NCBI RefSeq assembly: GCF_001510645.1
Contig: NZ_LMVB01000001.1
Span: forward strand, 62,001 to 126,000
Source: Paenibacillus sp. FJAT-29882
GTDB lineage: Bacteria; Bacillota; Bacilli; Bacillales; DSM-1321
Length of the DNA: 64,000 nt
Direction: 5' to 3'
Within the stretch, counting starts at the first letter, position 1; each line of letters begins with the position of its first letter. Position numbers and translations under genes: made by a program. Positions 1,118 to 57,583 of the stretch are shown one piece after another. The notes beneath the pieces are model-generated. The model saw only the letters and a program-made list of their open reading frames with translations. It did not search any database and was not told where the DNA came from.

Positions 1118-1157
1118 AACGACTCCAGTGCTTAGAGTCGTTGAAATAAGATTTTTT
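1118..1157 (+). terminator. Hairpin with T-run, possible second terminator
   Basis: AACGACTC (1118-1125) pairs perfectly with GAGTCGTT (1135-1142); a T-run at 1152-1157 follows after ten bases. Its T-run is the left flank of repeat A copy 1. Apart from this hairpin and the repeat, the 350-bp gap between metK and ytoA holds nothing recognisable. Confidence 0.4.
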
Positions 1158-1308
1158 ATCCCGCATTAACGGGCAGTAAAACCCCGACCTCAAGGCTTAG
1201 AGGAGTCGAGGAAGCGTAGGTGGGGGATAACTGCGTAAAAGCCCGATTGGTTCAACTAACAATCAGTGGGGGATGAAGACCCCCTCACTGATTGAAGTTT
1301 CACTTTAT
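1155..1308 (+). repeat. Repeat family A, copy 1 (full length)
   Basis: Left flank TTTAT (1155-1159), then CCCGCATTAACGGG at the left end, a nested hairpin (ACGGGCAGT with a damaged partner; inner CCCC-GACCT with AGGTGGGGG), then a second hairpin (CAATCAGTGGGGG and ..CACTGATTG), ending AGTTTCACTTTAT. The final TTTAT supplies the TAA stop of ytoA on the other strand. Related copies occur near 18.5, 26.9, 30.9, 43.4, 46.1, 54.9 and (reverse) 57.6 kb. Confidence 0.85.
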
Positions 1309-7442: not shown

Positions 7443-7554
7443 TTCTTATCAAGAGATGTGGAGGGACTTGGCCCTATGATACCTCGGCAACAGGTTTTTA
7501 CTTTTGTAAAAACACTGTGCTAATTCCAACGGACGAAAGTTTGATAGATAAGAA
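7443..7554 (+). ncRNA. SAM-I riboswitch (S-box) aptamer
   Basis: P1 is TTCTTATC (7443-7450) with GATAAGAA (7547-7554). Between them lie the S-box landmarks AGAGATGTGGAGGGAC, TGGCCCTATGA, ACCTCGGCAACAG and CTGTGCTAATTCCAAC. High SAM should favour the downstream terminator and switch off methionine import. Confidence 0.97.
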
Positions 7555-18489: not shown

Positions 18490-18542
18490 TTTATCCCGCA
18501 TTAACGGGCAGTAAACCCCCACTGATGGGAGTTTTACTTTAT
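18490..18542 (+). repeat. Repeat family A, copy 2 (48-bp deletion derivative)
   Basis: TTTAT (18490-18494), CCCGCATTAACGGGCAGTAAA, then directly the right end (CCCCCACTGATGGGAGTTTTACTTTAT, given here to 18542). The middle of the element is missing. It lies inside the permease operon, ending beside the next ribosome site. Confidence 0.8.
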
Positions 18543-26770: not shown

Positions 26771-26849
26771 CTTATTCAGTAACCTGCCCTTCGTTGAACC
26801 TTAGTCCGTGCTGTCGATTGATCGAAGCGTTTGCTGCGATCTTAGCGAC

Positions 26850-26913
26850 AGTAGAACGGGACTAACAATCAGTGGGGGATGAAGAACCCCCACTGATTGA
26901 GGTTTCACTTTAT
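26850..26913 (+). repeat. Repeat family A, copy 3 (right half)
   Basis: AGTAGAACGGGACTAAC is followed by the right hairpin (CAATCAGTGGGGG with CCCCCACTGATTG) and the TTTCACTTTAT end. The left half is absent or replaced by sequence not shared with full copies; copy 5 at 43.4 kb has the same AGTAGAACGGGAC variant. Confidence 0.75.
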
Positions 26914-26921
26914 TCTTATAT

Positions 26922-30855: not shown

Positions 30856-31197
30856 TGTATGAAGGACATGGGGACGGGGCTTCACGACTTACTAAAATAG
30901 TCAATCTACTTATCAGGTATACGTAGTTTATCCCGGTTTAACAGGCTGTAATACCCCCATCTCAATTTTTGCGAGAGAATCAAGAAGTAAATAGGTGGGG
31001 GATAAACAGCCTGTAAATCCCCGATTGGTTCAACTAACCCTCAGTGGGGGATGAAAAACCCCCCACTGAGGGAAGTTTCACTTTATCGGAAAGCATCCAA
31101 AATTCTGGTTCCGCATCGCCACCATTGTGATTAGGCGAGTGCATGCTAAATGATATATTCTTCATAGTAACTGGTGGCGTTTTAACGTCATTCAGTT
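30856..31197. repeat. Repeat family C, copy 2, split by repeat A copy 4
   Basis: The left part (30856 to about 30931) and right part (about 31087-31197) align to copies 1 and 3; between them lies a complete repeat A. Without the insert the unit is about the same length as copy 1. Confidence 0.85.
30927..31086 (+). mobile_element. Repeat family A, copy 4 (full length, nested in repeat C)
   Basis: TTTAT flanks the left end (30927-30931) and ends the right end (31082-31086). Outer arms AACAGGCTGT and ACAGCCTGT, inner CCCCCATCT/AGGTGGGGG, right hairpin CCCTCAGTGGGGG/CCCCCACTGAGGG. The host repeat continues exactly on either side, which proves insertion. Confidence 0.88.
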
Positions 31198-36460: not shown

Positions 36461-36473
36461 TAAATATTCTAAT

Positions 36474-36724
36474 ATAGACAGTGATAAGGAGTAGTACCGA
36501 TTAGAACCTGTGTAGAGAGTTGACGGATGGTGCAAGTCAACCAGGAATGATCGCGAACTCGCCTTTTGAGTTTCAGGCATGAAGGATTAGTAGTGCCTGA
36601 CGTTCATCCACGTTACGGATTTGGAGCGGGGCGATGGTTAAAGTCGCCAATTTGGGTGGTACCGCGGGTTGATTATATACATAATCCTCTCGTCCCTTTT
36701 TATAGGGATGAGGGGTTTTTTTAT
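36474..36724 (+). ncRNA. T-box leader (leucyl-tRNA sensing)
   Basis: A stem I region with the motif AGAGAGTTGACGG..., a likely specifier loop with CTC (Leu) in GCGAACTCGCC (about 36553-36563), the T-box GGGTGGTACCGCGG (36654-36667) and a terminator (CCTCTCGTCCCT 36686-36697 with AGGGATGAGGGG from 36704, then Ts). Uncharged tRNA-Leu should pair with TGGT of the T-box and prevent termination. Confidence 0.95.
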
Positions 36725-43401: not shown

Positions 43402-43540
43402 AGATGGGGGATAACTGCACGTAAAAGCCCGATTGGTGAGATACAGTGAAACTTGCCGATACATGAGCAGAGGTTTAGTAGAACGGGACTAACAATCAGT
43501 GGAGATGAAGAAACCCCTACTGATTGAAGTTTCACTTTAT
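43402..43540 (+). repeat. Repeat family A, copy 5 (left end lost, variant middle)
   Basis: Begins in the inner arm (AGATGGGGGATAACTGCACG), has an extra middle segment with AGTAGAACGGGAC as in copy 3, then the right hairpin CAATCAGT.../..ACTGATTG and TTTCACTTTAT. Confidence 0.8.
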
Positions 43541-46058: not shown

Positions 46059-46153
46059 TTTATCCCGCAATAACGGGCAGTCAAGACCCCCACCTCAAGG
46101 TTTAGAGGAATCGTAGGTGGGGGACAACTGCCCGTAAAACCCTTTCCCTTTAT
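46059..46153 (+). repeat. Repeat family A, copy 6 (right hairpin deleted)
   Basis: TTTAT (46059-46063), CCCGCAATAACGGGCAGT, inner CCCCCACCT/AGGTGGGGG and a perfect ACTGCCCGT partner arm, then AAACCCTTTCCCTTTAT. The right hairpin is missing. Confidence 0.82.
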
Positions 46154-46558: not shown

Positions 46559-46861
46559 ATGAAATTATTACCACGTGAGATAGACAAGCTCATGATTGTG
46601 GTGGCTGGTGATCTTGCTAAGAAACGAAAAGATAGAGGATTAAAATTAAATCATCCGGAATCAGTAGCTCTTATCACGTACGAAGTGTTAGAGGGAGCAA
46701 GAGATGGAAAAACGGTGGCTGAATTGATGGAATATGGAGCAACGATTTTGTCACGCGAAGATGTGATGGAAGGTATCCCTGAGATGATTCACGATATTCA
46801 AGTAGAAGCGACTTTTCCAGATGGAACAAAATTAGTAACGGTTCATAATCCTATTAGATAA
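46559..46861 (+). CDS. ureA: Urease gamma subunit
   Basis: A 100-residue structural subunit, the normal length. Starts [20 protein letters not shown] and contains [22 protein letters not shown], both diagnostic. It packs around UreC in the (abc)3 urease that splits urea to ammonia and CO2. ATG follows AAGGAGG. First gene of ureABCEFGD; the ureA-ureB gap is 85 bp. Confidence 0.97.
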
Positions 46862-46946
46862 AGTGAAGCCTCCATCCGTGAGGTTTTTTCATCGCCGACT
46901 GATGATCAGTTTAACTAGGATAGAATGCGACAGGAGGAATCATAGA

Positions 46947-47267: not shown

Positions 47268-48979
47268 TGAGTTACAAAATGTCTAGAAAGCAATATTCAC
47301 AAATGTACGGTCCGACTACAGGGGACTCTATTCGTTTAGCGGATACAGATATATTGATCCAAATTGAGAAAGATTATACAACGTATGGTGAAGAAGTTGT
47401 GTTTGGCGGCGGAAAAGTAATTCGTGATGGAATGGGACAACATCCACTTGCAACGAGAGCAGATGGTGTGCCAGATCTAGTGATTACAAATGCAGTAATC
47501 CTGGATTATACAGGGATTGTTAAAGCAGACATTGCTATTCGTGACGGGAAAATCGCTGGAATCGGGAAAGCGGGAAATCCTTTAGTACAAGATAATGTGG
47601 ATATTGTCATTGGTGCTTCGACTGAAATCATCGCTGGAGAAGGATTGATTGTTACGGCTGGTGCGATCGATACCCATGTTCACTTTATTAATCCAACGCA
47701 AATCGAAACGGCATTATCTTCTGGTACGACGACATTAATTGGTGGCGGAACAGGTCCGGCAGCAGGATCAAAAGCGACAACTGTTACTCCTGGAGAATGG
47801 AATATGCACCGTATGCTTCTTGCAGCGGAAGGAATGCCAATTAACGTTGGGTTCACAGGTAAAGGACAAGCAGCATCGGAAGAGCCTCTTATTGAGCAAG
47901 TTCGCGCTGGCGCAATTGGCTTAAAAGTGCACGAAGACTGGGGAGCAACAGCTTCAGCCCTTGACTATGCATTACGCGTAGCCGATAAATATGATGTTCA
48001 AGTAGCGGTTCATGCAGATACGTTGAATGAAGGTGGCTTCATGGAAACGACGATGGCTGCCATTAAAGATCGAGTGATTCATATGTACCATACGGAAGGT
48101 GCAGGTGGCGGACATGCTCCTGATTTAATCAAATCAGCAGGCTATGAAAATGTTCTTCCATCTTCTACAAATCCGACTTTACCATATACAGTTAATACGG
48201 TTGACGAGCATTTAGATATGTTAATGGTTTGCCATCATTTAAATCCATCAATTCCTGAAGATCTTGCATTTGCTGATTCACGGATTAGAAAAGAAACGAT
48301 TGCAGCAGAGGATATTCTTCATGACATGGGGATCATTAGTATGGTCAGCTCAGATGCACAAGCGATGGGACGAATTGGCGAGGTTGTTTTACGTACATGG
48401 CAAGTAGCAGACAAAATGAAAAAACAACGCGGAATCTTGGAAGGCGACAGTGAGTTTTCTGATAACAACCGTGCAAAACGTTATGTGGCTAAATATACGA
48501 TCAATCCTGCCATTACACACGGAATCTCTGAATATGTTGGTTCAATTGAAGTCGGAAAAATTGCCGATCTAGTTCTTTGGTCCCCAGCATTTTTCGGTGT
48601 GAAGCCTGAAATGATCCTGAAAAATGGCTTTGCTGTAGAGAGCTTAATGGGGGATGCGAATGCATCCATTCCAACACCGGAACCGGTGATTTACCGTCCG
48701 ATGTATGCACAGGTTGGAAAAGCATTAGCGAAAAGCTCGATCACATTCATTTCTCAAGCAGCATTTGATGATAAAGTGCATGAGAAACTTGGCTTGGAAA
48801 AAATGGTTCTTCCAGTTCATGGTATCCGAAATTTAACGAAAAAAGATATGAAACATAATTCTGAAACGCCTACTATCACTGTTGACCCACAAACATATGA
48901 GGTAACCGTAAACGGTGAACTTATTACTTGTGAACCAGTTGAAACTGTACCGATGGGGCAACGATATTTCCTATTCTGA
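47267..48979 (+). CDS. ureC: Urease alpha (catalytic) subunit
   Basis: A 570-residue amidohydrolase-fold subunit with the dinickel site. All known catalytic residues are present and numbered as in S. pasteurii: H137 and H139 (THVH), carbamylated K220 ([10 protein letters not shown]), C322/H323 on the mobile flap ([20 protein letters not shown]), plus the later His in VHADTLNE and HTEGAGGGH and Asp in SSDAQAMGR. Starts ATG overlapping the ureB stop. Cytoplasmic. Confidence 0.98.
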
Positions 48980-54879: not shown

Positions 54880-54922
54880 AATCCATTTTGATAAAAAGAT
54901 TTTTCAAAATGGATTGTTTTTA
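54880..54922 (+). terminator. Terminator-like hairpin interrupted at its T-run by repeat A
   Basis: AATCCATTTTGA (54880-54891) pairs perfectly with TCAAAATGGATT (54904-54915), then GTTTTTAT; the last five bases are the flank of repeat A copy 7. Confidence 0.8.
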
Positions 54923-55079
54923 TCCCGGTTTAACAGGCTGTAAAACCCCCACCTCAATTTTTGTGAGAGAATTAAGAAATAAATAGGTGGGGGATAAACA
55001 GCCTATAAATCCCCGATTGGTTCAACTAACCATCAGTGGGGGATGAAAAAAGCCCCCACTGATGGAAGTTTCACTTTAT
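54919..55079 (+). mobile_element. Repeat family A, copy 7 (full length)
   Basis: TTTAT flanks the left end (54919-54923) and closes the right end (55075-55079). Arms ACAGGCTGT and ACAGCCTAT, inner CCCCCACCT/AGGTGGGGG, right hairpin CCATCAGTGGGGG/CCCCCACTGATGG. Nearly identical to copy 4. Confidence 0.87.
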
Positions 55080-57556: not shown

Positions 57557-57583
57557 ATAAAGTGAAACTTCTATCAATGGAGT
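57557..57583 (-). repeat. Repeat family A remnant (reverse orientation), copy 8
   Basis: ATAAAGTGAAACTTCTATCA is the reverse complement of the right end of family A with small changes; the rest of the element is not recognisable. It lies about 65 bp upstream of the chimeric ORF. Confidence 0.5.

Follow-up and report, generated by a model that had tools for sequence, protein, structure and literature searches.

What kind of element is the 161-bp repeat at positions 54919 to 55079 of the window, the 64,000-nucleotide stretch of DNA analysed here, and by what means did it come to lie there? We propose that this repeat, in the following denoted as repeat A, is a high-copy insertion element without an open reading frame (ORF) that is fixed on the target TTTAT and moved as single-stranded DNA by a trans-acting transposase of an IS200/IS605-like type (HUH, Y1), likely in a PATE-like manner. 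We assign a probability of roughly 0.6 to this reading.

The window contains three standard copies, one derivative with the left stem only, one 53-bp copy and several fragments (Table 1). From left to right, repeat A consists of TTTAT, C(C/G)C(G/A), TAA, a bipartite left stem, a linker (for example CCCGATTGGTTCAA), CTAA, a right hairpin whose first pair is C-G, AAGTTTCAC, and a second TTTAT. A preliminary description had assigned a common layout to four copies. It holds for those at 1155, 30927 and 54919, which have TTTAT ends, the bipartite left stem and the right hairpin, but not for the copy at 46059, which is devoid of the right hairpin. The arms quoted there are correct (ACGGGCAGT/ACTGCCCGT at 46059 and ACAGGCTGT/ACAGCCTGT at 30927), as are the three quoted feet of the right hairpin, read directly in the window copies. 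TTTAT is likewise read at both ends of 1155-1308, 30927-31086 and 54919-55079, and terminal inverted repeats are indeed absent from the window copies, as one end, TTTATCCCG..., is no inverted copy of the other, ...GTTTCACTTTAT. In the focal copy, one pair of the left stem is broken (3' arm ACAGCCTAT). Of the 155 copies longer than 100 bp, 122 have xTAAC at the left foot and 110 have it at the right foot. Since the C of TAAC is paired in the right hairpin, the bases common to the outside of both feet are TAA only.

Table 1. Copies of repeat A in the window and constituent parts of the focal copy.
Feature	Position	Strand	Remarks
Focal standard copy	54919..55079	+	161 bp with both TTTAT; empty site in the relative G009
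Left TTTAT (target; predicted left cleavage site)	54919..54923	+	single TTTAT at the empty site in G009
TAAC, start of left stem	54931..54934	+	TAA external to the stem, C may form the first pair; predicted guide region (putative role)
Left bipartite stem	54933..55006	+	outer ACAGGCTGT/ACAGCCTAT, inner CCCCCACCT/AGGTGGGGG; from sequence and outer-stem covariation
CTAAC, start of right hairpin	55026..55030	+	CTAA outside, C is the first pair; predicted guide region (putative role)
Right hairpin CCATCAGTGGGGG / CCCCCACTGATGG	55030..55065	+	from sequence and covariation
Right TTTAT (predicted right cleavage site)	55075..55079	+	TTTAT in 165 of 178 scored copies
Standard copy	1155..1308	+	left 3' arm lacks two bases
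Standard copy	30927..31086	+	empty site with one TTTAT in G009
Left-stem-only derivative between two TTTAT	46059..46153	+	empty site in G009
Minimal 53-bp copy	18490..18542	+	also present in G009
Long-form copy, right part	26842..26915	+	
Long-form copy, right part	43421..43540	+	
Right-end fragment	46858..46915	-	
Right-end fragment	57557..57580	-	

The genome that harbors the window (G000, 5.32 Mb) contains about 275 right ends with at most one mismatch, compared to 3 matches for the reversed pattern. Repeat A is a modular family. The 184 two-ended copies range in size from 51 to 519 bp, with 23 copies of at most 56 bp, 89 copies of 140-170 bp and 44 copies of 200-519 bp. In long copies, inserted extra hairpin modules separate the left stem from the right foot; in minimal copies, the left stem contributes its 5' arm and the right hairpin its 3' arm, the two being joined. 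Neighbours in tandem arrays have one TTTAT in common (locus L030). No copy bears an ORF: in the five stretches and 115 listed loci, no left and right end pair up within 6000 bp beyond the 184 short copies.

The base changes in the two hairpins had been read as a sign of maintained structure, and the covariation proves to be real across a larger set of copies. For the alignment, 88 copies were thinned to 28, resulting in a final set of 27 copies, 25 of which are less than about 85% alike. A fusion (L099) and two copies near-identical to the focal copy (L083 and L200) were excluded, and the window copies at 54919 and 1155 were added exempt from the identity filter. RNAalifold recovers the outer left stem and the right hairpin from these 27 copies. 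Paired cells amount to 94.2% (84.3% in shuffled alignments), pairs with double changes to 9 (4.6) and double-change cells to 41 (12.0), and none of 500 shuffles reaches the observed value in any of the three measures; the number of further pair types is a weaker signal (17 versus 14.4, with 39 of 500 shuffles as high). Examples are the column pairs 18-91 (GC 13, AU 6, CG 3, UA 3), 22-87 (AU 15, UA 7, CG 3) and 145-182 (AU 16, CG 9). Shifting the partner by 1-3 columns reduces the paired cells from 94% to 21-52%. The paired covariation therefore supports the view that the hairpins are maintained as structure. We suggest that a mutational cause, namely template switching that perfects palindromes, could give a similar pairing pattern.

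The preliminary description had allowed for either a DNA hairpin or an RNA; the data lean to DNA. An RNA transcribed from the top strand should favour G-T over A-C mismatches, the reverse being expected for a bottom-strand RNA. The 178 right hairpins comprise 28 G-T, 33 A-C and 41 other non-Watson-Crick combinations in 1358 cells, and this lack of preference fits a DNA structure. The left ends (140 copies, six inner pairs) have 2 G-T, 8 A-C and 17 other combinations in 657 cells. The modules of the Rfam family RF01690 described below have 2 G-T, 10 A-C (six at one closing pair) and 4 others in 340 cells, counted in modules of 67 nt with at least 11 of 17 Watson-Crick pairs (20 distinct ones kept of 30 loci), a filter that favours pairing. 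Both sets lean to A-C, in small numbers. As judged from base composition at paired positions, the absence of a preference for G-T over A-C points to structure at the DNA level in the ends as well as in the RF01690 module, with the counts covering repeat A and these modules alone.

We consider it most improbable that repeat A is kept for an RNA function, as a small RNA or UTR element, with mobility being secondary. Paired covariation is what such a function would produce, the accessible part of PMC2864571 classes RF01690 as certainly RNA, and about half of the bcr-family copies are seen in transcripts according to the available text of PMC3446304. The excess of A-C in the RF01690 module might also result from an RNA on the other strand. 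However, G-T is as rare as A-C in the right hairpin, copies are polymorphic between genomes, and promoter matches near the focal copy number 2, compared to a shuffled mean of 3.1.

Repeat A is mobile. We compared 63 copies with G009, a close relative of the same genus: 47 own copies against a 400-kb stretch of G009 and 16 copies of G009 against four own stretches. For 12 of the 63 copies, the focal copy included, the other genome has a clean empty site; eight of these sites consist of one intact TTTAT and four have a changed 5-mer. The eight intact sites correspond to copies of, among others, 55, 157-161 and 328 bp. Six of them are gapless around the junction, and two have gaps of 1-3 bases in runs of T/A. 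At the focal site, one of the eight, AAATGGATTGTTTTTAT is followed by the element here, and AAATGGATTCTTTTTATG is unbroken in G009. Of the remaining copies, 23 are unmatched in the other genome's stretches, 12 match with a single flank and 11 with both flanks non-contiguous. The 12 sites are left from 11 + 6 flagged ones after removal of five rows, namely those filled in both genomes (own1 78490, G009 219655), those with poor alignment (own15 48360, G009 381822) and one whose counterpart in the other genome is occupied by a short copy (G009 366617). As a separate observation, one insertion site is occupied by copies of two sizes, a short copy in the own genome (C15:442538-442584) and a 270-bp copy in G009 (C1:4486617-4486885).

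The terminal 5-mer is TTTAT at the left end of 151 and at the right end of 165 of the 178 scored copies, many of which had been located via their exact right end. A deviation from TTTAT is found in 38 copies, and an identical deviant at left and right occurs in none of the 178, which speaks for a fixed site and not for a free duplication. Insertion 3' of a fixed short site, as is characteristic of IS200/IS605 elements, is seen in eight of the 12 empty sites, with four differing. A DDE (cut-and-paste) transposase with TTTAT as its duplicated target could likewise have given rise to a MITE with TTTAT at both ends and a single TTTAT at most empty sites, as expected from a 5-bp duplication. We nevertheless regard a MITE of this kind as quite unlikely, as the terminal inverted repeats of DDE-element MITEs are absent, a matching non-TTTAT duplication occurs in 0 of 178 copies, and the copies in Peribacillus show a strand bias. 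The fixed 5-bp site and the precise junctions are compatible with movement by some site-specific recombinase, as reported for bcr elements in the accessible part of PMC6542083; the strand bias is not predicted by a recombinase alone, and we consider this alternative very unlikely.

The strand bias was determined in five fully read Peribacillus stretches (1.264 Mb), with tandem copies collapsed first. Of 59 copies, 49 are oriented with the top strand of repeat A on the leading (G-rich) strand (p = 2.7e-7), which is equivalent to insertion into the lagging-strand template; an orientation of this kind is stated for IS200/IS605 in the available text of PMC5371812. Leading-strand placement is observed in 6 of 6 copies between two lagging-strand genes, in 17 of 18 flanked by a convergent or divergent gene pair and in 26 of 35 between two leading-strand genes. 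Gene direction does not account for the bias, since 23 of 24 copies outside the both-leading contexts are on the leading strand. The 8-kb skew has the correct sign in 153 of 157 Peribacillus windows. An origin at about 355 kb of contig C12 was considered and rejected, as no inversion of the GC skew is seen at this position. The data do not establish the bias as general, since it is seen in the Peribacillus stretches and not significant elsewhere: the listed genome-contig loci have 65 of 115 copies on the leading strand (p = 0.19), and 60 of 106 when Peribacillus titles are removed (not significant). When both-leading and edge contexts are removed from the listed loci, the count is 29 of 44 (p = 0.049).

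For transposition as a single strand, we envisage that the top strand would fold while single-stranded on the lagging-strand template, and that the transposase would bind both hairpins. The bases just outside the hairpins (TTAA on the left, CTAA on the right) would direct cleavage to the two TTTAT, and the released single strand would insert 3' of another TTTAT. A guide tetranucleotide immediately 5' of each hairpin foot is described in the accessible part of PMC6006769. In most copies of repeat A longer than 100 bp, TAA precedes each of the hairpins, at the predicted guide position. The sequence ATAAA, which faces TTTAT in the left internal loop, was rejected as a guide because it is unconserved in the copies read by eye.

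The search for the enzyme in the host covered the Y1 and TnpB families. It resulted in one Y1 match, a RAYT-type ORF of 188 aa (G000:C15:133492-133818; loci L001 and L038). This gene has GGGGTCAGACCCC-type palindromes on both sides (GGGGTCAGACCC(C/T)-ATTTCCC), not repeat A, and to regard it as the parent is therefore not the best reading; co-occurrence keeps it as a rival. The host TnpB genes (L039-L044) were rejected as parents, as they have no repeat-A end at E < 0.001 except L043, where the end (235-260) belongs to a distinct short copy. Among 25 Peribacillus genomes, the 12 with a Y1 gene have 1-275 right ends and the 13 without have 0-6 (Mann-Whitney p = 0.0003, kinship ignored). All ten genomes with at least 7 right ends harbor a Y1 gene or remnant, and two Y1-bearing genomes have merely 1 and 5 right ends. 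Among 49 other genomes with repeat A, Y1 is present in 41 and absent in 8.

These counts also bear on the possibility that repeat A is a REP-like substrate of a single-copy RAYT (TnpA-REP) gene and not of an IS transposase. A RAYT-type gene, called by score and ORF length, is found in eight of the 25 Peribacillus genomes (Mann-Whitney p = 0.006, kinship ignored), including the four richest ones with 275, 149, 71 and 41 right ends. The copies of 53-56 bp are REP-sized, and repeat A resembles REP/BIME sequences in its high copy number and in a hairpin with conserved foot bases. Unlike these, it has the foot TAA instead of a GTAG-type foot and two different hairpins, and the host RAYT gene is flanked by its own, different palindromes and not by copies of repeat A. 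Moreover, two genomes with RAYT have only 1 and 5 right ends, and we consider the RAYT gene rather unlikely to be the mover.

Turning to an IS200/IS605-like transposase, a profile of the left end matches 14 times with at least 10 bits in 79 loci around Y1 genes. Seven of these matches (L223, L254, L263, L281, L282, L283 and L295; 10-16 bits) are on the strand of the Y1 domain and precede it by 92-118 bp, at the usual place of an IS605 left end, and four of the seven have TTTATC just before a GACAGAAGAC-type sequence. The likenesses are individually weak (E 0.004-0.26), and the IS605 loci are mutually related. The other seven matches are in L266, L267, L289 and L294. The profile of the right end has strong matches in L267, L281 and L294, at copies of repeat A and not at IS605 right ends. 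No right-end match in the 79 loci pairs with a Y1 gene, hence neither a parent element nor a cognate transposase was found. Two candidates were rejected: in L281 the right end is 3 kb past the IS605 left end, beyond two unrelated ORFs and in a separate truncated copy, and in L267 (Natronobacillus) an IS200-type tnpA lies antisense between repeat-A ends (1247-2576), which we read as a nested insertion.

The anatomy, TTTAT as a fixed site, the Peribacillus strand bias and a weak resemblance to IS605 left ends agree with the likeness to IS200/IS605 elements noted in the preliminary description, but this likeness does not extend to an IS with both ends matching; we therefore infer, rather than observe, a derivation from IS200/IS605. 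A related Y1 or TnpB element with repeat-A ends, which that description had envisaged, did not emerge, as the Y1 gene of the host is a RAYT with its own palindromes and no copy bears an ORF. Features in common with IS200/IS605 elements and PATEs are subterminal hairpins without terminal inverted repeats, a fixed short target and common bases at the hairpin foot; a strand bias is seen in the Peribacillus stretches, and the likeness of the left end is weak. In contrast, repeat A has no ORF, and thus in the scanned loci no HUH Y1 transposase of its own, a different right end, TTTAT at both ends, a high copy number and a modular size of 51-519 bp.

With respect to distribution, the exact right-end pattern is found in at least 115 stretches of genome contigs. 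Nearly all titles among the matches listed name genera that we take to be members of the Bacillaceae and Planococcaceae; exceptions are a Modestobacter contig, a Gracilibacter MAG and a Paenibacillus genome. The contig titled Modestobacter (L092) is 4.6 kb long, carries a minimal copy and is possibly a contamination. The pattern also occurs in two stretches of viral contigs; phage records have no right-end match. Plasmid matches comprise five records, none from the B. cereus group. A further observation is the right part of repeat A on the Klebsiella grimontii plasmid pNY3A (CP079755.1; L331, 1501-1565), next to genes for a restriction endonuclease and a CPBP protease, which reflects either transfer or an assembly artefact.

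Among known repeats, bcr1 is described in the accessible parts of PMC6542083, PMC2267715 and PMC3446304 as a MITE-like element of 147-167 bp with many copies, conserved structure and a TTTAT motif. Compared by description only, and within these parts of the literature, repeat A has size, TTTAT and MITE-like behaviour in common with bcr1-bcr3 (group A B. cereus repeats). The latter are described there as restricted to the B. cereus group, whereas the host of repeat A is likely a Peribacillus. The matches listed include no B. cereus-group title (some titles are just 'Bacillus sp.'), and B. cereus-group plasmids have no match to either of two query copies. Plain identity with bcr1, again compared by description only, is weakened by this absence of B. 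cereus-group titles and plasmids among the matches listed. Repeat A may be a bcr homologue outside the B. cereus group or an independent family.

The internal modules of long copies relate repeat A to a curated RNA family. RF01690 (Bacillaceae-1 RNA) scores above the Rfam gathering threshold inside many long copies, in either orientation. With 150 candidates scored per genome, such that the highest counts may be lower bounds, there are 45 matches here, 29 in G009 and up to at least 146 elsewhere. Five of the 17 searched genomes have none, two of which have 71 and 41 right ends of repeat A, and RF01690 is found in the B. subtilis control, too. Of 30 sampled RF01690 loci, 20 lie between repeat-A ends (L312 and L322 overlap), two have a left end only and eight have neither. 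By eye, several of these eight are inside another interspersed repeat (CTCGAG / AAGCGGAAGCGCC type), which carries the RF01690 module in L302, L305, L307, L313, L316 and L325. RF01690 is thus an internal module of many long copies of repeat A, whereas Rfam treats it as an sRNA gene. This assignment is new here, and the available parts of the literature searched contain no link between Bacillaceae-1 and a mobile repeat. We note that the window also includes a T-box leader (36472-36700, +), a SAM riboswitch (7443-7554, +) and a match to RF02514 (5_ureB_sRNA) above the gathering score (47422-47711, -), the last possibly a mere antisense of a ureB-like gene.

A further-reaching and tentative reading, which we hold to be possible although somewhat doubtful, is that repeat A constitutes a set of interchangeable hairpin modules of single-stranded DNA, travelling on TTTAT ends across Bacillaceae, with a minimal unit of about 54 bp, and that the Bacillaceae-1 'RNA' would be a DNA part and not a functional RNA. 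The G-T/A-C ratio at covarying pairs provides a simple test of DNA versus RNA that is applicable to other repeat-borne 'RNA' families. If the proposed single-strand transposition is true, a common and unexplained class of repeats in Bacillaceae would become a testable transposition system, a mobile unit as small as about 54 bp would be defined, and the question would arise whether a curated RNA family is part of a mobile DNA.
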